From Chloroflexota bacterium (GTDB lineage: Bacteria > Chloroflexota > Ktedonobacteria > Ktedonobacterales > Ktedonobacteraceae): a DNA stretch of 24,104 nucleotides. The position numbers and the translations under genes are program-made. This document shows, one piece after another, positions 6,576 through 17,363 of the stretch. The notes beneath the pieces are model-generated. The model saw nothing but the letters and a program-made list of their open reading frames with translations, searched no databases and had not been told where the DNA came from. The stretch is taken from positions 1 to 24,104 of the forward strand of contig CADDYT010000095.1 of NCBI GenBank assembly GCA_902810755.1, given 5' to 3'. Each line of letters opens with the position of its first letter. Within the stretch, counting starts at the first letter, position 1.

Positions 6576-6586
6576 ATGAGCGCGAG

Positions 6587-6675
6587 CAGGCCAGCCGCAA
6601 GAGGTGGCCCTACTATATACGTCAGGCTCGGCTGGCGGATCGTGTAGAGTAGGGCCACCTCTTGCGGCTGGCCTG
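6587..6675. repeat. REP-like inverted pair, family A copy 1
   Basis: Two perfect 28-bp arms (6587-6614 and 6648-6675) in inverted orientation flank a 33-nt loop. Each arm is itself a small hairpin around the loop CGCAAGA, followed by the tail CTACT. The left copy continues with the full ATATACG tail, while the right copy has diverged there. It lies between the convergent methyltransferase gene and the 72-aa ORF and could act as a bidirectional terminator. Confidence 0.9.
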
Positions 6676-6901: not shown

Positions 6902-6951
6902 GGGGTTGACATCCTTTCTGGCGGCATCATGTCACACGTCATGCTGCCTGG

Positions 6952-6986
6952 CAGGCCACCCGCAAGAGGTGGCCCTACTATATACG
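6952..6986 (+). repeat. Single REP-like unit, family A copy 2
   Basis: One unpaired unit with a perfect 7-bp stem (GGCCACC/GGTGGCC), loop CGCAAGA and the conserved tail CTACTATATACG. It lies between the 72-aa ORF and the Rad52-like gene. No inverted partner is visible nearby. Confidence 0.85.
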
Positions 6987-7013
6987 TGTCCGCTCTCAGC
7001 GTCATTCTGCTGC

Positions 7014-8593: not shown

Positions 8594-8779
8594 CTATTTC
8601 GTCTCTGTTTGCGCCTTGCGTTCCTGCTCGCGTTCGTGTTCATGCACGAGTTCTTCGACGGCGGCGAGTTCGGTGCGCACGGCACGGATGCGCATGGTGA
8701 TGAAGGCGAGATAGATGAAAAGGGCGACCCAGACGACGGCGTAGGCGGCGACCAGGTAGGTGACTCCTTCTCCTTGCAT
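8594..8779 (-). CDS. ccmD: CcmD-like small membrane protein
   Basis: A 61-aa protein with one membrane helix (about 7-28, TYLVAAYAVVWVALFIYLAFIT) followed by a charged, Glu-rich cytoplasmic helix. This is the size and topology of CcmD, which helps release holo-CcmE from the CcmABC complex. The ATG at 8779 has AGAGGAGG 7-8 nt upstream and lies 20 bp after ccmC, the standard position for ccmD. The open frame continues upstream inside ccmC, but that part is antisense-like shadow coding. The protein is too short for a sequence-only assignment; context makes it convincing. Confidence 0.85.
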   Translation of the reverse strand: MQGEGVTYLVAAYAVVWVALFIYLAFITMRIRAVRTELAAVEELVHEHEREQERKAQTETK

Positions 8780-8799
8780 GGAAAAAACCTCCTCTGACG

Positions 8800-9552
8800 T
8801 TATTCGACGCTGGCACGCAGGAGCCGGGCCTGCGTCTGCAATTTCTGGAACTGGTAGACCTGGATCATCAGGAAGCAGTAGAGCAGGGTGAAGGTGGCCA
8901 GCGAGAGCATGAGGGCGAGCAGCATCTGCGGCGGCAGGTTGGGCGAGGAGCCGATGGGCAGCACGGCCTGCGGGTGCAGCGTGCGCCACCAGTTGACCGA
9001 CTCGTAGATGATGGGAACATCGATGACGCCGACGATGCCCAGCACGGCTCCGGCCCGCGCGCCGGCAGGGGTGTGGCCCATGTAGCTGCGTAGCATGAGA
9101 TAGGCGATGTAGATGAACCAGAGAATGAGCGTGGTGGTGAGGCGAGCATCCCACGTCCACCACGTTCCCCAGATCGGTCGGCCCCAGAGCGAGCCGGTGA
9201 TGAGGGTGACGGTGATGAAGACAACGCCGATCTCGGCAGCGGCCCGCGCAATCCAGTCCCAGCGTTCGTCCTGTTTCCACAGGTAGACGACGCCCGCGAC
9301 GGCCAGCACGCAGAAGGAAAGCATGCCGAGCCAGGCTGACGGAACGTGGAAGTAGAAGATACGCTGCGCGTCGCCCTCGATGGCGTCGGTCGGCGCGTAG
9401 ATCAGGTCTGCCCAGATGGAGACCAGCATGCCGACGAGCGAGAGCGCGCCCAGCACGATGGAAACAACGGGCAGGCGGTCTGGCCGCGACCCGTGTGCGG
9501 CTGTAGCTGCCGCTCGCGGCTTTGTTTCAGTTGTGCGATTTGCTAATGCCAT
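8800..9552 (-). CDS. ccmC: Heme exporter/handling protein CcmC
   Basis: CcmC presents heme to the chaperone CcmE at the outer face of the membrane. The 250-aa protein has six membrane helices. The tryptophan-rich WWD motif, WGRPIWGTWWTWDARL, lies at 123-138, and the two conserved external histidines are H69 (YFHVPSAW) and H193 (WWRTLHPQ). The start chosen is the ATG at 9552 (MALANRT). The open frame extends nine codons further, but those lie in the REP-like element. The ribosome-binding site is weak (GGGGA, about 9 nt upstream) and is partly supplied by the end of that element. The repeat separates it from ccmB by 136 bp, the second widest gap inside the operon. Confidence 0.95.
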   Translation of the reverse strand: MALANRTTETKPRAAATAAHGSRPDRLPVVSIVLGALSLVGMLVSIWADLIYAPTDAIEGDAQRIFYFHVPSAWLGMLSFCVLAVAGVVYLWKQDERWDWIARAAAEIGVVFITVTLITGSLWGRPIWGTWWTWDARLTTTLILWFIYIAYLMLRSYMGHTPAGARAGAVLGIVGVIDVPIIYESVNWWRTLHPQAVLPIGSSPNLPPQMLLALMLSLATFTLLYCFLMIQVYQFQKLQTQARLLRASVE

Positions 9553-9561
9553 AGGATCAGT

Positions 9562-9670
9562 TCCCCAGGGTACCCGCAAGGGGTACCCCTACTATATACG
9601 CCCCTCGCCGCCCCACTCACGCCAGTGCTGGCGTATAGAGCAGGGGTACCCCTTGCGGGTACCCTGGGGA
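9562..9670. repeat. REP-like inverted pair, family A copy 3 (ccmB-ccmC gap)
   Basis: Perfect 29-bp arms (9562-9590, 9642-9670) flank a 51-nt loop. Each arm is an internal hairpin with stem GGGTACC/GGTACCC around GCAAG, followed by CTACTATATACG on the left and a slightly diverged tail on the right. The element ends 9 bp before the ccmC ATG. Confidence 0.92.
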
Positions 9671-9688: not shown

Positions 9689-10363
9689 CTATTCCTCTAT
9701 TACATACTCAAATGTGAGCATGGAAACGCTCAGGAAGATAATGTCGAATGCGATCATCAGGCCGAGCCAGGGCGGTTCGCCGGGCGATGGGCCGGTTGGA
9801 ACCATCAGGGAGCCGGTGGCGCGCACGGCGCCGATGACGACCGGGACGATCAAGGGAAAGACGAGAATGGGCAGCAGGACATCGCGGGCCGAAGTCGCGG
9901 CAGCCATCGCAGAAAAGAGCGTTCCCACAGAGGCGATGCCCAGCGTCCCGGCGAGGACGATGAGCAGCAGCGGCCCCGTGAAGAGCGGGATGTTGAAGAG
10001 CGCCGCGAAGACGGGCAGGGCGATGATTTCGACCACGCCAATAAAGAGCATATTGCCCAGCAGTTTGGCAAGATAAATGGCCCTGCGGTCAACCGGGCAG
10101 AGCAGGAGGCGGTCCAGCGAGCCTTTTTCGCGCTCGGCGGCGATGGTGCGACCGAGGCCAAGCAGGCTGGCGAAGATGAAGGCGACCCAGAGCGCGCCGG
10201 GTGCGACGGCGGCTTTGTTGTCCACGCGCAGATCGAAGGCGAAATTGAAGATGACGAGGACGAGCAGGGCGAAGAGGCCCATGCCGAGCCAGACCTGCTT
10301 GCTGCGCAGTTCGCAGCGCACATCTTTCCAGAGAATGGCCCACACCTGCACCCAGAAGCTCAT
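9689..10363 (-). CDS. ccmB: Heme exporter subunit CcmB
   Basis: CcmB is the membrane subunit that joins CcmA and CcmC in the ATP-driven release of heme-loaded CcmE. The 224-aa length, six hydrophobic segments and the segment SLLGLGRTIAAEREKGSLDRLLLCPVDR (about 66-93), characteristic of CcmB, identify it. The ATG at 10363 overlaps the ccmA stop codon as ATGA and has a strong AGGAGGTG upstream, indicating translational coupling and a fixed stoichiometry with CcmA. Confidence 0.95.
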   Translation of the reverse strand: MSFWVQVWAILWKDVRCELRSKQVWLGMGLFALLVLVIFNFAFDLRVDNKAAVAPGALWVAFIFASLLGLGRTIAAEREKGSLDRLLLCPVDRRAIYLAKLLGNMLFIGVVEIIALPVFAALFNIPLFTGPLLLIVLAGTLGIASVGTLFSAMAAATSARDVLLPILVFPLIVPVVIGAVRATGSLMVPTGPSPGEPPWLGLMIAFDIIFLSVSMLTFEYVIEE

Positions 10364-11073
10364 CGCAGCACCTCCTGATAGACTTGCCGCACGCTCTCTG
10401 CTCCCAGTTCGTGTGTGGGACGGCGATAGACCACGCGCCCGTTGTGCAGCATAAGGATAGTGTCGCTCAACGCCATTGCGCGCTCCAGGCGATGCGTGGT
10501 GAAAATGAGGGTGCCGCCCTGCGAGCGGTGTTCGTCCAGAAGCGTTTCTAAGAGCGCGTTGCCCTCTTCGTCCAGGCCGGTGTCCGGCTCGTCGAGCAGG
10601 AGCAGGCGCGGGGAGTGCAGCAGCGCGCGCGCCAGGGAGAGACGCTGCGCCTGCCCGCGAGAGAACGTACCGACGCGCTCGCCTGCCTTGCGTTCCAGCC
10701 CGACGCGGCTCAGCAGAGCCAGCGCGCGCGCGCGCCCGTTACGCACAGAGTACATGCGAGCGAAAAAGAGCAGGTTTTCCAGCGCCGTCAGTTCGTCGTA
10801 GAGGTAGGGCTGGTGGGCTACGAAGCCGACGAGCGAGCGAAGCTGCTGCGCGTCCTCCACGATGTCCCGTCCGGCGATGGAGACGCGGCCTCCGTTCGGC
10901 TTCGTCAGCGCGGCCAGGATACGCAGCAGCGTCGTCTTGCCCGCGCCGTTGGGGCCGAGCAGGGCGGCGCGCTCGCCTGCCTCCACCGTCAGGTCGATGC
11001 CGCGCAGGACGGGTTTCAGGCCAAAGCTCTTTTTAAGGCTGCATATCTCCACGCAGGGACTGCTCGCGCTCAC
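10360..11073 (-). CDS. ccmA: Heme exporter ATP-binding subunit CcmA
   Basis: CcmA is the cytoplasmic ATPase of the CcmABCD complex. Of 237 aa, Walker A is GPNGAGKTT (40-48), the Q-loop lies near H87-Q88, the ABC signature is FSRGQAQR (137-144; the first Gly of LSGGQ is Arg, a change often seen in CcmA), and Walker B is LLLLDEPDTGLD (157-168), followed by the switch His in TTHR. The GTG start at 11073 has AAAAGGAGG upstream and overlaps the preceding gene's stop as GTGA. The 3' end overlaps ccmB. Confidence 0.95.
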   Translation of the reverse strand: MSASSPCVEICSLKKSFGLKPVLRGIDLTVEAGERAALLGPNGAGKTTLLRILAALTKPNGGRVSIAGRDIVEDAQQLRSLVGFVAHQPYLYDELTALENLLFFARMYSVRNGRARALALLSRVGLERKAGERVGTFSRGQAQRLSLARALLHSPRLLLLDEPDTGLDEEGNALLETLLDEHRSQGGTLIFTTHRLERAMALSDTILMLHNGRVVYRRPTHELGAESVRQVYQEVLR

Positions 11074-12374
11074 AACGCCTCCTTTTCGCTCAGCAGGGCG
11101 CGCAGCCGCGCTTTTGTTCTGGCCCGCTTCTCCTGGTACGCGGCCTTCGAGATTTTACCCTCCTCAAAGCTTCTGTCGAGCGCCAGCAATTCCTGGAGCA
11201 GGGCCTGTTCTTGCTCCCGCGGGCTGTTGCTCCTCTTGCCATTGCCGTTGACAGCAGCTTTCGTGGTTCTGTTACCAACGCCGGTCACTTTCGGGTTTGA
11301 GCTTTGCGCGGCTTTCGCGCCTTTTGCCGTCTTGCCATTGCTGGCTACCTTGCCCTCGCTCTCCGGCTGGCGACGCGCGCGATACAGGAACCACGTGACG
11401 GCCAGGATGGCAAGCATGACGAGCAGGCCGACGATGAGCCAGAGGATGATGGGATTGATGCTGTTATCGGCGGGGATCAGGGCCTTGTTGACGGGCAGAC
11501 CCTCGATCTCAGCGTGAATCTCGTTGCCCTGCAACAGCTTCTGCCCCTGCAAGAGCAGGTAGGGGTGATTGTTGGCGGTGGTGATGCCCTGCGAGGTGAG
11601 GGCGCTGGACGTGGCATGCAACTCGCTCGGCACCATCAGGGAAAGCTGCACCGTCGGCAGCATCACATCATAGCGAAAATCGTAGGTTGAGCTGGTGTAC
11701 GGGATGTCGAAGGTGAAGGAAAATCCCGAACTGCCCGGCGGCAGGGCGGCATCGCTGGCAAAGCCGGTACTGACAGCAACCGCGTGATAGCCGTTGAAGC
11801 CGTCGCCAAGCGAGACGTTGCGCGCCCCCACCGGCAGCGAGAAGAGCAGGGCGTCGGGCTTGCTCGTGCCGTTGCCCGTGTTGAGCGAGCCGACAAAGGT
11901 GTGCGTCGTCAGATTCTGGAACAGGTACAGTTCCGAGACGGTCACGCTGTTCTTCGAGGCATCCGGCTTCTGAAACAGGATCGTCACCTGCACAACGGCA
12001 ATATCCTTTGTACTCGTCGTTGCCTCATAAACGGTCAGATTCACCTGCTGCACCGACTTCTTATCCAGATGGACGAGGTCGCTGGTATACTGCGCCCCCT
12101 CGTAGTCGGTGAACAGCGCGTAGGCGGTAGATGAGTCGGTAGCGAGATTGGAAAAGGAAAACGAGCCGTGCGCGTCCGTCGTCACCTTTGTCAGATCGCG
12201 CGCGCTATTGCCCTGCGCCATCTGCAATGTCACGCTCTGCCCCGCCACCGGCGCGTTATGGTTCGTCCCATTCAACAACTGCCCGTAGATACGCCCGCTG
12301 CTGGCGGCGAAAGCGCAAGGGGTGAAAAATAGTAAGGATAGGATAAGGATACTGACTCCCAGCAGGATAGCCAT
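11070..12374 (-). CDS. Exported single-pass membrane protein of the ccm operon
   Basis: From the ATG at 12374 the 434-aa protein begins with a signal peptide (1-24, hydrophobic core ILLGVSILILSLLFF). An immunoglobulin-like/carboxypeptidase-regulatory fold follows (about 28-105: GRIYGQLLNG, then TTDAHGSFSFSNL), then a larger beta-rich extracytoplasmic region to about 300, a membrane helix (308-331), and a basic, Gly/Asn-rich cytoplasmic tail. The tail ends in a helical pair at 388-434 (LLALDRSFEEGKISKAAYQEK). The frame remains open to an ATG at 12563, but those 63 codons translate a REP-like repeat and would bury the signal peptide, so they are rejected. It overlaps ccmA by a GTGA junction. 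Function is unknown; an extracytoplasmic scaffold for cytochrome assembly is a reasonable guess. Confidence 0.75.
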   Translation of the reverse strand: MAILLGVSILILSLLFFTPCAFAASSGRIYGQLLNGTNHNAPVAGQSVTLQMAQGNSARDLTKVTTDAHGSFSFSNLATDSSTAYALFTDYEGAQYTSDLVHLDKKSVQQVNLTVYEATTSTKDIAVVQVTILFQKPDASKNSVTVSELYLFQNLTTHTFVGSLNTGNGTSKPDALLFSLPVGARNVSLGDGFNGYHAVAVSTGFASDAALPPGSSGFSFTFDIPYTSSTYDFRYDVMLPTVQLSLMVPSELHATSSALTSQGITTANNHPYLLLQGQKLLQGNEIHAEIEGLPVNKALIPADNSINPIILWLIVGLLVMLAILAVTWFLYRARRQPESEGKVASNGKTAKGAKAAQSSNPKVTGVGNRTTKAAVNGNGKRSNSPREQEQALLQELLALDRSFEEGKISKAAYQEKRARTKARLRALLSEKEAL

Positions 12375-12410
12375 AGCCGATGGGGTACCCGATCTCAAGA
12401 TACCCGATCC

Positions 12411-12528
12411 CAGGGTACCCGCAAGGGGCACCCCTACTATACGCGAATCCGTTTGCACACGCCGCGTGCAAACGATGGTGCGCGGAGATGGAGCGTATAT
12501 AGTAGGGGTACCCCTTGCGGGTACCCTG
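12411..12528. repeat. REP-like inverted pair, family A copy 4
   Basis: The left unit (12411-12443) and right unit (12494-12528) pair over their length, with one mismatch and a 2-nt deletion in the left tail. Internal hairpins use GGGTACC/GGTACCC around GCAAG. The loop holds a separate perfect 8-bp palindrome (GTTTGCAC/GTGCAAAC, 12451-12473). Additional GGTACCCGATC-like fragments at 12383-12410 suggest further degraded copies. Confidence 0.9.
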
Positions 12529-12546
12529 TTGGCAGGGAGGTCAGGT

Positions 12547-12927
12547 CTATGTAATCTGTTCATCCTGTTCTTTCAATTTCTGCAACTGCTGTTCGATCAT
12601 CTCATCGAGTTCCTGCTCGCGGTCATAGCGGGCTTTGAGTTCGCGCAGGGCGCGGCGCGTATAGCGTTCGCGCAGGGCGCGGTAATCGGCTGCGGTAATG
12701 TTGCCTAGCTGATAATCAAGCTCTACCTCGTGCAGCGCGGCGCGCGCCGCCTGCTCTCGCTCTGTCTGCCCGCCATCGGTTGAAGCCGACGAGGCGGGTG
12801 AAGCGATACCGGCATTATCATCCTGTGTCAGTTTGCCGCGCCTGCTCGCGCGCGCGCTGTAGAGCGGCTGAAGCACGAAGACGAGCGATAACAGGCCGAG
12901 CGCGACAGCGAGTAATAGAGAATCCAT
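12547..12927 (-). CDS. CcmI-like cytochrome c biogenesis protein
   Basis: The 126-aa protein has one N-terminal membrane helix (about 3-24) and a cytoplasmic helical region with AALHEVELDYQLGNITAADYRALRERYTRRAL (about 63-94). This pattern is typical of the N-terminal part of CcmI/CycH, which in other bacteria chaperones apocytochromes and works with CcmF and CcmH. The periplasmic TPR domain of full-length CcmI is absent. The gene follows the ccmH stop codon directly (TAA then ATG) with GGAGG 8 nt upstream. The same helical motif recurs at the tail of the next protein in the operon. The call is by motif and context. Confidence 0.65.
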   Translation of the reverse strand: MDSLLLAVALGLLSLVFVLQPLYSARASRRGKLTQDDNAGIASPASSASTDGGQTEREQAARAALHEVELDYQLGNITAADYRALRERYTRRALRELKARYDREQELDEMIEQQLQKLKEQDEQIT

Positions 12928-13509
12928 TTAATCGGCCTCCGTCTGCTGCTTTTCATGGCGTGCATATTGTGATGCAAAAACAGGGTCGTCGGCAGCCAGT
13001 TCCGCTTCAAGCTGCTGCCGGTAGAGGGCGAAATCCCCTTCATCGAGATCATCTGCCTCTGCCCCGGTATCGTTCCCTTTCGCTGTGCCGCCGGGGGCAA
13101 GCGAGGAGGCGGACCAGTCGCGCAGGATGAAAAACAGGAGTATGCAGCCGCCGGTAAAGAGGCCAAAGGGGACGAGGTAGGCGAGCATACTGAAGCCCTG
13201 CCAGGGGGGCGACCAGAGAATTTGCTGGCCGTAGCGGCTGACAAAGTAATCGATGACCTGCTGCTCCGATTCGCCAGATTGCAGCCGCTGGCGAATGACC
13301 GCGCGCATCTGCTGCGCGATCAGCGAGGGAGAGTCGGCCACCGATTCGTCCTGGCAGACGGGGCATTTCAACTGCGAAGCCACGTCCTGCACTTTCTGGT
13401 CAAGCGTCTTCTGCGGCGGTGTCGCAATCATGACATACGACCAGATGGCCGCCAGGACCGCCACCACCACCAGCACGAGCAGCAGGGGACGCCAGCGTTT
13501 CATTTTCAT
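12928..13509 (-). CDS. ccmH: Cytochrome c maturation protein CcmH
   Basis: CcmH is a membrane-anchored thiol-disulfide protein that reduces the apocytochrome heme-binding cysteines. The 193-aa protein has a signal anchor (8-28), the redox motif LKCPVCQDESVADS (C49, C52) in a helical external domain, conserved DYFVSRYGQQILWSPPWQG (about 87-105), a second membrane helix near 109-127 and a cytoplasmic tail with DEGDFALYRQQLEAEL. The ATG at 13509 overlaps the ccmF stop and has GAGGAGG upstream. Its presence matters because the neighbouring CcmE is of the cysteine type. Confidence 0.94.
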   Translation of the reverse strand: MKMKRWRPLLLVLVVVAVLAAIWSYVMIATPPQKTLDQKVQDVASQLKCPVCQDESVADSPSLIAQQMRAVIRQRLQSGESEQQVIDYFVSRYGQQILWSPPWQGFSMLAYLVPFGLFTGGCILLFFILRDWSASSLAPGGTAKGNDTGAEADDLDEGDFALYRQQLEAELAADDPVFASQYARHEKQQTEAD

Positions 13510-15629
13510 ATGACCGCCTCCTCATCCCGCTTACCTGTTGAGGATTGCGTATCTCCCGTTCGAGCGGAGCTGGCCTCCGCCCTGGTTTCCACCCCAACCC
13601 TATCATCTTCCTCCGTGACATTCTCGTTCCCCACAACCGTTCTGCCCTGCCCTCTACGGATGGCTGCTACAGGCTGAATAGCCGTTTTGCGACGGCGCGC
13701 GGGCCACCAGCAGATGAGGCCGCCACAGATCATGAGCAGGCCACCGTACCAGATGAGCGGGACAAGCGGGTTGACGAAGATGTGGATGGTGGCCGAGGTC
13801 GCACCCTGCCAGTTGTAGAGAATGACATAGATATCGGTCAGGCCGAAGGTGGGAATGGGGATCAGGCTGGCCGGCTGGTTGTCGAAATGCTGGTAGAAGG
13901 TGCGGCCAGGGTAGATGTAGCCGAGCAACTGGCCCTCGTGCCAGATTTGCAACTGGGCCGTGATGGTCTCGCTGCCGGGATTGATAGCATCGATGTTGCC
14001 GAGATAGGTGAACTGGTAGCCGATGACATTCATGCTCTGGCCGGGTTGCAGCACAGCGTTCTCCTGCGTCTGGAAAAACTGCGAGCCAATGACGCCGACG
14101 GCCAGCAAGACCAGCCCCAGGTGAACGATGTAGCCGCCGTAACGCTGGCGATACCTCTGGACAAGCTGGTAGAGCGCGACAGGATAGGGTTCGCCATGTT
14201 TGTGGCGCACGCGCATGCCGCGCCAGAGTTCGTAGAGGATGGCTCCGGCGGTGAAGGCGCAGACGGCGAAGCCGACATTGGCGAAGATATCACGCACGCC
14301 TGCCAGCGGTAAGATGGCGGCACAGGCGGCGGCGGCAAGGGCCGGGAGGCCGAGATTGCGCCAGAGGGCGCGCATCGATGTGCGCCGCCACGCCAGCAGA
14401 GGGCCAACGCCCATCGCCAGGATCAGCAAAGCGAAGAGCGGGCCATCGACGTGCTGGTAGAAGGGCGCGCCGACGGACATAGTTTCTTTGCTCAGCGCGG
14501 CTGAGATGAGCGGGAAGATGGTTCCCCACAGCGTGGCGAAGGCGATGCCGACCAGCAGCAGGTTGTTGAAGAGAAAAATGCCCTCGCGCGAGATCACCGA
14601 GTCGAATTCCTGCTCCGGGCGCAGCTTCGGCAGGCGGAAGACGAAGAGCGCCGTGCTGAAGACGATGATGATGACCAGGAAGGCAAAGAAATAGCCGCCG
14701 ATATCGGAATAGGCGAAGGAATGCACAGAACTGATGACGCCGCTACGCACCTCGAAGGTGCCGAAGATCGAGAGGGCGAAGGTGGCGACCACCAGGCAGA
14801 GGTTCCAGACCTTGAGCATGCCGCGCCGCTCCTGCACCATCGTGGAGTGCAGGAAGGCGGTCGCGGTCAGCCAGGGCAGCAAGGCCGCGTTCTCCACCGG
14901 GTCCCAGCTCCAGTAGCCGCCCCAGCCCAGCACGTGATAGGCCCACCACGCGCCGAGCAGCAGCCCCGTCGATTGAATCGTCCACGAGGCCAGAGTCCAG
15001 CGCCGGATGGTGCGCAGCCATTCGTTATCCAGCCGCCCGCTGAGCATGGCGGCGACGGCGATGGCGAAGGGGACGGAGAAGCTCATGTAGCCCATCAGCA
15101 ACATGGGCGGGTGAATAAGCATGCCAGGGTCCATCAGCAGCGGGTTGAGGCCCACGCCGTCAGCCGGGGGGTTGGGCAGGCGCACGAAGGGACTGGAAAC
15201 GGTCGCCAGCATGAACAGGAAAAAGACCTCAATGCCCATCAGCGTCGCCATCACATAGGGAACCAGCGCGGCAGGGGCGCGGCGCGAGGTGAAGACGAAG
15301 ATGGCGGAGAAAACCGAGAGCATCAGCGCCCAGTAGAGCAGCGACCCCTCCTGCCCGCCGTAGAAAGCGGCGAATGTATAGTACCAGGGCATGCTGAGAT
15401 CGGACTGTTGCGCCACGTAGCGCACGCCGAAGTCATGCACCAGGAACGAGATGACGAGCGCGCACGCGGCCAGCAGCAGCAGCGCAGCCACGACCAGCAC
15501 GCCGCGTTTTGCGCTGACCACCAGCGCCGGTATGCCACGCAGCGCGCCCAGCACCGCCACCAGAATCGTATAGACGGCAAAGCCCAGTGCAAGAATGATA
15601 GCAATAACGCCTACGTCTGAAAAATACAC
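13506..15629 (-). CDS. ccmF: Heme lyase subunit CcmF
   Basis: CcmF transfers heme from CcmE to apocytochrome c with CcmH. From the GTG at 15629 it has 707 aa and some 15 membrane helices. The WWD motif is WGGYWSWDPVENAALLPWL (236-254). Conserved histidines H173 (IHPPMLLMGY) and H261 (TAFLHSTM) fall at the same positions as heme-ligand histidines of E. coli CcmF. The GTG is chosen because GAGG lies 8 nt upstream and it begins MYFSDVGVIAI, a normal CcmF N-terminus; the 78 codons upstream overlap ccmE out of frame. The last ~55 residues form a charged cytoplasmic tail. It starts 19 bp after ccmE and overlaps ccmH by ATGA. Confidence 0.96.
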   Translation of the reverse strand: MYFSDVGVIAIILALGFAVYTILVAVLGALRGIPALVVSAKRGVLVVAALLLLAACALVISFLVHDFGVRYVAQQSDLSMPWYYTFAAFYGGQEGSLLYWALMLSVFSAIFVFTSRRAPAALVPYVMATLMGIEVFFLFMLATVSSPFVRLPNPPADGVGLNPLLMDPGMLIHPPMLLMGYMSFSVPFAIAVAAMLSGRLDNEWLRTIRRWTLASWTIQSTGLLLGAWWAYHVLGWGGYWSWDPVENAALLPWLTATAFLHSTMVQERRGMLKVWNLCLVVATFALSIFGTFEVRSGVISSVHSFAYSDIGGYFFAFLVIIIVFSTALFVFRLPKLRPEQEFDSVISREGIFLFNNLLLVGIAFATLWGTIFPLISAALSKETMSVGAPFYQHVDGPLFALLILAMGVGPLLAWRRTSMRALWRNLGLPALAAAACAAILPLAGVRDIFANVGFAVCAFTAGAILYELWRGMRVRHKHGEPYPVALYQLVQRYRQRYGGYIVHLGLVLLAVGVIGSQFFQTQENAVLQPGQSMNVIGYQFTYLGNIDAINPGSETITAQLQIWHEGQLLGYIYPGRTFYQHFDNQPASLIPIPTFGLTDIYVILYNWQGATSATIHIFVNPLVPLIWYGGLLMICGGLICWWPARRRKTAIQPVAAIRRGQGRTVVGNENVTEEDDRVGVETRAEASSARTGDTQSSTGKRDEEAVI

Positions 15630-15648: not shown

Positions 15649-16125
15649 TTACGGCGTGGGTGTCGCAGCCTGAAATTTCGATGGACATTTGGCGAGCAGC
15701 GTCTGCGCCCTGAACGGCCCGCTGCCAGTATAGTAGCCCTCGACGACAACGGTGATGCCGGGGCGGAAAATATCGGGGACGACGCCCGTATAGGTGACGG
15801 GCAGCGTCTGCGACCCCTGCGCGATGACGAAAGAGATCGTCTGCTGCGCGTCGTTGCGCACAATCGAGCCAGGCTTCACTACCCCGGCCACGCGCACATC
15901 CTGCGTCACGCAGGTCTTGCAGCTTTTCAGTTCCGACACGGTCATATAATAGACGGCATTTGCCTGCGTGTTCGAGACCACAAGGTAGATAACTGCGCCG
16001 AGGATGGCGATACCGGCGAAGAGGAAGCTGAGACGCAGGCGTTTGCGCCTGCGCGGCTTCCTTTCCGGCTGCGGGAGTTTTTCACCCCGTTCTTCCTCGT
16101 CCGTCAGTGAAAGAGTAGGCTGCAC
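15649..16125 (-). CDS. ccmE: Heme chaperone CcmE, cysteine-type variant
   Basis: CcmE carries heme covalently from CcmC to CcmF. The 158-aa protein has a basic N-terminus (22-31), a membrane anchor (33-50) and the beta-barrel heme-chaperone domain (NAVYYMTVSEL, DVRVAGVVKPGSI, PVTYTGVVPDIF, VVVEGYY). In the heme-attachment motif, the classical His-x-x-x-Tyr is Cys147-Pro-Ser-Lys-Phe151. The Cys is known from variant CcmE proteins of archaea and some bacteria, but the Tyr that normally follows is Phe here (codon TTT). A second pair, C69-K-T-C72, sits in the barrel. The GTG start at 16125 has a strong AGGAGG 7 nt upstream, 11 bp after the CopD-like gene. Confidence 0.93.
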   Translation of the reverse strand: MQPTLSLTDEEERGEKLPQPERKPRRRKRLRLSFLFAGIAILGAVIYLVVSNTQANAVYYMTVSELKSCKTCVTQDVRVAGVVKPGSIVRNDAQQTISFVIAQGSQTLPVTYTGVVPDIFRPGITVVVEGYYTGSGPFRAQTLLAKCPSKFQAATPTP

Positions 16126-16136
16126 GCTACAACCTC

Positions 16137-16595
16137 CTAATGGGGCGCGAGCGCAGCTTCAAACAGGCCGTTGAGCAGCGCGCCCAGTAAAAATACGAAT
16201 ATACCCAGGGCCAGCAGCAGTTGCGGCGCGGCCTGCGAGAGCCGCGTTGAACGCTTTGCCAGCCGACGAATATTGCTCTGCGCCATATACGCCGCCAGCG
16301 CGAACATGACCAGCGCGGCGGCAACCTTGATGCCCAGCACAACCAGGTACGGCCAGCCCAGCGTGGTCTGCGTCAGTCGGTCAAACGTCAGAAAGGCTCC
16401 GCTCAGCAGCAGGACACCGATGCAGGCGCTGACCATGCGCCGGAACAGGGCGGCGATTCTGGCCGCCAGCGCCGGAGTCGGTTCGGCCATACGCAGGGCA
16501 GGCGCCAGCACAAGCTGGTAGAAGATGCTGCCCCCGACCCACGCGGCAGCCGCCAGCAGGTGCGCCACCCGCATAATCAGGCGAATTTCAAACAT
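16137..16595 (-). CDS. CopD-like four-helix membrane protein
   Basis: From the ATG at 16595 the protein has 152 aa with four hydrophobic segments. It begins FEIRLIMRVAHLLAAAAWVGGSIFY, the pattern (His in helix 1 and AWVGG) shared by CopD-like and related heme or copper membrane proteins. The open frame extends 42 codons upstream, but those translate the inverted repeat at 16617-16700 and carry its typical artefact peptide, so the shorter start is chosen. The ribosome-binding site (GGAACGGG) is weak. It lies between ccmG and ccmE in the operon. A role in copper or heme delivery to the periplasmic side would fit the setting but is inference. Confidence 0.7.
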   Translation of the reverse strand: MFEIRLIMRVAHLLAAAAWVGGSIFYQLVLAPALRMAEPTPALAARIAALFRRMVSACIGVLLLSGAFLTFDRLTQTTLGWPYLVVLGIKVAAALVMFALAAYMAQSNIRRLAKRSTRLSQAAPQLLLALGIFVFLLGALLNGLFEAALAPH

Positions 16596-16616
16596 TGTTT
16601 GCCCGTTCCAATCCCC

Positions 16617-16700
16617 TGTCATGCTGAGGGAAGCGAAGCATCCAGTCGTCGGGCTGTCTGCAAGGGCTACATTGGATGCTTCGCTTCCCTCAGCATGACA
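16617..16700. repeat. Perfect 28-bp inverted repeat, family B
   Basis: Arms 16617-16644 and 16673-16700 are perfect reverse complements with a 28-nt loop. Each arm begins TGTCATGCTGAGGGAAGCG. Sequences of this type recur in many Chloroflexota genomes (recalled, not checked). It lies between ccmG and the CopD-like gene and differs from family A in having no internal hairpin. Confidence 0.9.
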
Positions 16701-16721
16701 TGCCCTTATATACAGGCGCAA

Positions 16722-17363
16722 TCAGCGCGTCGCCAGTTGCAGGCCGTGCTGGAAAGCCTGCTCGCTGAGCGGGCCTGCCACCCAGGCGACGATGATGCCT
16801 TTGCGATTGATAAAGAACGTTTCCGGCATGCCGGTGACGCCGTAGTTGATGGCGGTCGTGCCGCTGGCATCGACGACGTTGGGATAGCTGATGCCATATT
16901 TTTGCACGAAGCCGAGGCCATCGGGCTTTGTGTCCTGGTAATCGATGCCCAGGAAGACGACGCCGCGCGCGCGCGCCTGTTGCCACTGGCTCTGCAAGAA
17001 AGGCGCTTCCTGCTGACAGGGCCCGCACCACGATGCCCAGAAATTGAGCATCACCGGCTGCCCCTTATAGGCCGCAAGGGCCAGCGATGAGGCCGGGGAA
17101 CCGCTCAGGACAGAGAGCGTGAAGCCGGGCGCGGCATGCCCCACCAGCGCGTTGCTCGATGGAAGATCGGACGTGGCCGTATCTGGCTGGCGCGCTGGCG
17201 TCAGCAACTGCGTCCAGAGCAGGATGAGCAGGCCCGCGTTGAGCAGGCTCACCACGATAAAGATGGTAATGCTGCGCCTGCGCGATTTCACGCGCTTCCT
17301 GTTCAGCTTTTCACCTTCATCATCGGCAGCGATCGTCTCAAAAGAAATATGTTCTGTCTGCAT
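16722..17363 (-). CDS. ccmG: Thiol-disulfide oxidoreductase CcmG/DsbE
   Basis: CcmG is a membrane-tethered thioredoxin that supplies reducing power to the CcmH/apocytochrome system. The 213-aa protein has a basic cytoplasmic N-terminus, a membrane anchor (32-52), and a thioredoxin fold with WASWCGPC (C113, C116) and the cis-proline loop TGMPETFF. The acidic GIDYQDTKPDGLGFVQKYGISYP insert is typical of CcmG/ResA/TlpA proteins. It is the first gene of the ccm cluster. The ATG at 17363 has only a weak purine-rich site. A terminator-like hairpin lies 14 bp upstream, and I see no convincing promoter in the 154-bp gap to the glycosidase gene. Confidence 0.93.
   Translation of the reverse strand: MQTEHISFETIAADDEGEKLNRKRVKSRRRSITIFIVVSLLNAGLLILLWTQLLTPARQPDTATSDLPSSNALVGHAAPGFTLSVLSGSPASSLALAAYKGQPVMLNFWASWCGPCQQEAPFLQSQWQQARARGVVFLGIDYQDTKPDGLGFVQKYGISYPNVVDASGTTAINYGVTGMPETFFINRKGIIVAWVAGPLSEQAFQHGLQLATR

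Follow-up and report, generated by a model that had tools for sequence, protein, structure and literature searches.

The window, by which we mean the whole stretch of 24,104 nucleotides analysed, carries a ccm gene cluster on the minus strand in the order ccmG-copD-ccmE-ccmF-ccmH-orf-orf-ccmA-ccmB-ccmC-ccmD. The first gene (16722..17363) encodes a ccmG/ResA-like thiol-disulfide oxidoreductase with a WCGPC motif. Between ccmG and ccmE lies a gene for a copD-like membrane protein (16137..16721; PF05425). The 5' part of its frame holds a perfect 28-nt inverted repeat (window 16617-16700), and the copD-like gene therefore probably starts later. Downstream of ccmE are ccmF (13506..15629; 707 aa, counted from a GTG immediately following ccmE) and ccmH (12928..13509; PF03918, 5e-32), the latter with a CPVC motif. 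Two open reading frames follow. One, of 126 aa (12547..12927), has a weak match to CcmI below the cut-off (TIGR03142, E 0.03, 14.6 bits against 29.3). The other, of 497 aa (11070..12563), has a weak carboxypeptidase-regulatory-like match, also below cut-off, and its true start is probably further in. The cluster ends with ccmA (10360..11073; TIGR01189, over cut-off), ccmB (9689..10363; PF03379), ccmC (8800..9579; TIGR01191, 177.9 bits, slightly below the cut-off of 186) and ccmD (8594..8797; TIGR04391, over cut-off). The ccmC and ccmF products contain tryptophan-rich heme motifs, WGTWWTWD and WGGYWSWDPVEN respectively, both seen by eye. Inverted repeats of one family, 31-41 nt around short spacers, occur at window 6586-6675, 6951-6987, 9562-9670 and 12410-12528, some of them within the ccm cluster; the family looks like a mobile hairpin repeat.

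The ccmE gene (15649..16125, minus strand) starts with GTG at 16125 and stops at 15649. A plus-strand frame over the same interval is an antisense shadow of this real frame. The 158-aa product scores 97.2 bits (8e-28) with the CcmE profile PF03100, whose cut-off is 24.6, and falls below the cut-offs of the narrower NCBIfam CcmE models. When we searched by sequence for solved relatives, we recovered 8ce8, 1sr3, 2kct (D. vulgaris) and 1j6q. In the model predicted by AlphaFold2 (mean pLDDT 85.4, pTM 0.68), the protein has the single N-terminal membrane helix (32-53) and OB-fold domain of a CcmE; residues 59-61 form a strand, 63-68 a helix (helix 1) and 76-83 the first barrel strand (strand 1), and strands span 76-145. 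With this model as the Foldseek query, PDB ranks 1-4 were all CcmE (8ce8, 1sr3, 1lm0, 1j6q), the Cys-type 2kct came sixth behind an unrelated OB-fold, and OB-folds of unrelated proteins scored close behind the CcmE structures. Most likely the product functions as an ordinary CcmE.

The protein has only three cysteines, C69, C72 and C147. Residues 147-151 read CPSKF, in agreement with the original prediction of Cys in place of His and Phe in place of Tyr. Cys147 (TGT, 15685..15687) lines up with the motif region in PDB 2kct and 1sr3 and supplies the His or Cys of the heme-attachment position; that it carries heme is predicted by homology only. Phe151 (TTT, 15673..15675) stands where the Tyr iron ligand would be. 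The C69-K-T-C72 pair (TGC and TGC, 15910..15921) had been placed in the barrel. The pair is real, but the model puts it outside the strands, beside the barrel, in the loop that connects helix 1 with strand 1.

Comparison with known systems

E. coli CcmE (PDB 1sr3, 8ce8) shares with the window protein the membrane anchor, the OB-fold, the position of the heme site and the CcmABCD/CcmFH partners. However, it has His130 and Tyr134 in place of Cys147 and Phe151, and its aligned segment shows no counterpart of the C69/C72 pair. Desulfovibrio CcmE (System I*; D. vulgaris 2kct) has in common with the window protein Cys for His, the KCP motif and the OB-fold, but PMC3884852, which reports the D. vulgaris Cys-type structure, gives its motif as CxxxY where the window protein is CxxxF.

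The window thus has the Cys-type CcmE of System I*, with Phe151 instead of Tyr four residues after the Cys. System I* was originally defined by the lack of CcmH, and the Desulfovibrio operon is described as lacking CcmG as well (PMC3601427); the window encodes both. The cluster, with ccmG and ccmH alongside the Cys-type ccmE, is a full System I, unlike the CcmH-less System I* as first described. According to the 2011 review (PMC3601427), Chloroflexi are among the groups with Cys-type CcmE, about one third of these CcmE are accompanied by CcmH, and absence of CcmH is not characteristic.

We read 123 CcmE frames in 121 loci from a sample of Chloroflexota, the phylum of Ktedonobacter racemifer, in which 265 of 400 genomes had a match. 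Below, two letters give the residues at the heme-attachment and Tyr positions (CF for CxxxF, and so on). A CcmH gene turned up in the same genome for 20/20 His-type, 47/60 CF and 26/39 CY frames, counts that ignore kinship and come from drafts that can miss genes.

Conservation and distribution of the C69/C72 pair

A homologue search with CcmE gave 2155 matches, 120 of them listed; one was the window's own cluster, and we compared the 119 others. All 119, which reach down to 66% identity, keep C69, C72, C147, P148, S149, K150 and F151, although in one (P0068) the pair is spaced CxxxC. Among the matches listed, the named homologues at 85% identity or below are Ktedonobacteraceae. The original prediction would have fallen if close relatives had Tyr at position 151; none of the 119 does, and its expectation that relatives conserve Phe and the pair was borne out. 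Neither C69/C72 nor Phe151 is a local mutation.

A genome scan matched 131 CcmE loci, of which 80 were kept. The pair is present in 34 of these, namely all 31 placed in the class Ktedonobacteria plus 3 whose titles say only Chloroflexi, and is absent from the other 46. Across the 34 loci, columns 69, 72, 147 and 151 have zero entropy, whereas columns 68, 70, 71, 73 and 74 have 1.4-2.7 bits. This C/C/C/F pattern is far beyond chance. In the Chloroflexota sample the pair occurs in 25/123 frames, and it was absent from all 121 frames of three other phylum samples (G004, G005 and G545, described below). CxxxF CcmE from other Chloroflexota and from the Myxococcota- and Actinobacteria-titled samples have the same Cys/Phe heme motif but no C69/C72 pair.

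We mapped these characters on an unrooted tree built, with the motif and pair columns removed, from 234 rows chosen to represent 325. The pair required 1 change, where 20 shuffles gave 21 or more, and no later loss was seen. From this distribution we infer that the pair was gained, once, in the ancestor of Ktedonobacteria. A single change is also what a neutral lineage marker would give, with both cysteines fixed by descent and no selected role. That reading is already disfavoured and seems to us extremely improbable, as positions 69 and 72 are invariant amid strongly variable neighbours and both cysteines persist in every one of the 119 homologues over their full identity range. We found no literature on the C69/C72 pair of CcmE; relative to printed work the pair is the new part, CxxxF being in print already.

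Other cysteines were seen in these samples. Three His-type CcmE of the G005-phylum sample (L287, L291, L292) have a different Cys pair, C-x10-C, spanning the stretch from helix 1 to strand 1. In CcmF, C436, C457 and C640 (707-aa numbering), which lie in membrane helices as judged by eye, are kept in loci with CxxC-bearing CcmE and not in other loci.

Phenylalanine in place of the heme-motif tyrosine

Bacterial CcmE are stated to carry HXXXY or CXXXY (PMC9084895). The Tyr of the heme motif had been called normally invariant, a description that is not supported. Among 36 Cys-type CcmE compared in 2011, CPSKY was found in 25 and Phe in 4 (PMC3601427), a 2018 count put Phe at about 3% of CcmE (PMC6204919), and the Tyr has been reported as not essential. 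Among Cys-type CcmE of our Chloroflexota sample, Phe and Tyr occur with similar frequency: the 123 frames comprise 60 CF, 39 CY, 11 HY, 9 HF, 3 CL and one Cys without an aligned fifth residue. The sample leans to high-scoring matches, with CF in 59/93 high-scoring and 1/30 low-scoring frames; weighting by the size of both score parts gives about 36% CF and 41% CY. Leaving out the 25 frames with the extra pair, CF accounts for 35 and CY for 39 of 98.

The other samples were drawn from the phyla of G004 (via a Myxococcota-titled locus), G005 (via an Actinobacteria-titled locus) and G545 (via a Deltaproteobacteria-titled locus; this phylum includes the genome of a Dadabacteria-titled locus). Phylum samples consist of the best-scoring 30 (20 for the G545 phylum) plus spread picks and are not random draws. 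The 50 frames of the G004 phylum are 25 HY, 19 CY and 6 CF; the 51 of the G005 phylum are 19 CY, 16 HY, 12 CF, 3 CM and one without the motif; all 20 of the G545 phylum are CY. Phe at the Tyr position is therefore found in both Cys-type and His-type CcmE, and CxxxF in two phylum samples (G004, G005) besides Chloroflexota. As a replacement for Tyr, Phe151 is widespread. Earlier counts included CxxxF as a rare form; what is updated here is how frequent it is in Chloroflexota, together with the HxxxF group.

The HxxxF proteins of the Chloroflexota sample, mostly KHGPEF, are L160, L166, L169, L170, L172, L294, L299, L301 and L307. Leu (CPSRL) or Met (CPSKM) stands at the Tyr position in L173, L297, L305, L252, L274 and L279. 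Several Actinobacteria-group genomes have two adjacent CcmE matches in one frame (G723:C1:33999-34547 and similar places), one of the two ending before the heme motif.

On the 234-representative tree, no fewer than 7 changes were needed for Phe/Tyr and no fewer than 3 for Cys/His, where 20 shuffles called for 63 or more and 46 or more respectively. With a FastTree of 296 rows the two counts were 9 and 3. Because only 2 independent CF/CY pairs sit on well-supported branches, the number of Phe origins is uncertain.

If Phe151 removes an iron ligand, the heme might be held by another ligand, such as the conserved Tyr59/Tyr60 or water, and released differently, which is compatible with any role of the pair. 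Tyr60 is present in 87% of 93 CF rows versus 51% of 80 CY rows, and Tyr59 is invariant in a 76-row alignment (A2). However, Tyr59/60 are present in Tyr-type CcmE too, and two independent CF/CY pairs give the comparison no power. We consider this substitution of ligands unlikely.

Candidate roles for the C69/C72 pair

Two roles were rejected. Neither Val73 here nor the following residue in any of 59 CxxC frames (some genomes may be counted in both contributing sets) is the His of a CXXCH heme c site, and the heme binding suggested for the pair finds no support in this form. A thioredoxin-like active site does not fit the OB-fold model, in which the pair lies just past the end of helix 63-68, nor the unconserved XX residues.

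The simplest account of the pair is a disulfide staple: the intervening residues are variable, one insertion in the spacing is tolerated, the protein lacks a thioredoxin-like fold, and three CcmE of another phylum sample carry paired cysteines over this segment. Here the product would be a working CcmE, the heme chaperone of System I, which makes c-type cytochromes. CcmABCD would present heme outside the membrane, Cys147 would bind it, with a thioether to a vinyl group as the probable linkage, and CcmE would hand it on to CcmF/H. Phe151 would pack near the heme with no iron ligation, an arrangement shared by other CcmE lineages, and an extracytoplasmic intramolecular disulfide between C69 and C72, acquired once in the Ktedonobacteria ancestor, would fasten the end of helix 1 to where the barrel begins. 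One proposal has CcmE never lifting heme fully off the membrane (PMC10457321). A point against this reading is that D. vulgaris CcmE is reported to bind heme non-covalently through its Cys (PMC3884852). Against a staple, a purely structural role need not keep the pair invariant in 34 diverse loci, and CxxC spacing is also typical of redox-active and metal sites. We give this overall reading about an even chance of being right.

The invariance of both C69 and C72 also suits redox-active thiols working with Cys147, which might keep the heme thiol reduced or help break the heme-Cys bond at hand-over with electrons from CcmG/CcmH. The heme site is Cys-type in 59/59 CxxC frames, and how Cys-type CcmE break a thioether is a recognised puzzle (PMC3601427). 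The putative electron donors are at hand: CcmG was found in 32/34 and CcmH in 31/34 CxxC loci, with the CcmG cysteines in 32/32 rows and the CcmH cysteines in 29/30 and 30/31 aligned rows. Among CF frames of the Chloroflexota sample, CcmH was found for 24/25 with the pair versus 23/35 without it, again ignoring kinship and subject to genes missed in drafts. However, many Cys-type CcmE manage without the pair (35/60 CF and 39/39 CY frames in that sample), the XX dipeptide is unconserved with CxxxC in one homologue, and a single tree change provides no independent test. We judge a redox role rather unlikely. A fuller version, decidedly unlikely in our judgement, is a self-servicing Ktedonobacteria CcmE in which a built-in CxxC draws on CcmG/CcmH and either maintains Cys147 in reduced form or assists in releasing heme from a stable thioether, in a lineage that also lacks the Tyr ligand.

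The CxxC spacing would also suit a zinc or copper ion bound by C69/C72, possibly with Cys147 or across a dimer, and the adjoining copD-like gene is present in 33/34 CxxC loci versus 10/46 others. But this synteny tracks the clade and is not independent, and besides Cys147 the domain has no third and fourth invariant Cys or His, His68 occurring in 19/34 loci only. A metal site is, in our view, very doubtful.

In a current model of heme release, iron passes from a CcmC His to CcmE Tyr134 in a ligand switch (PMC9616876). The sizeable natural set of Cys- and His-type CcmE with Phe suggests that this His-to-Tyr134 step is not universal, and it offers test proteins. The Ktedonobacteria-only CxxC is a clean, clade-wide handle on the loading or release of Cys-bound heme. 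A thiol role of C69/C72 with Cys147 would be the interesting outcome, and a self-servicing CxxC, if true, would solve the heme-release problem of Cys-type CcmE.
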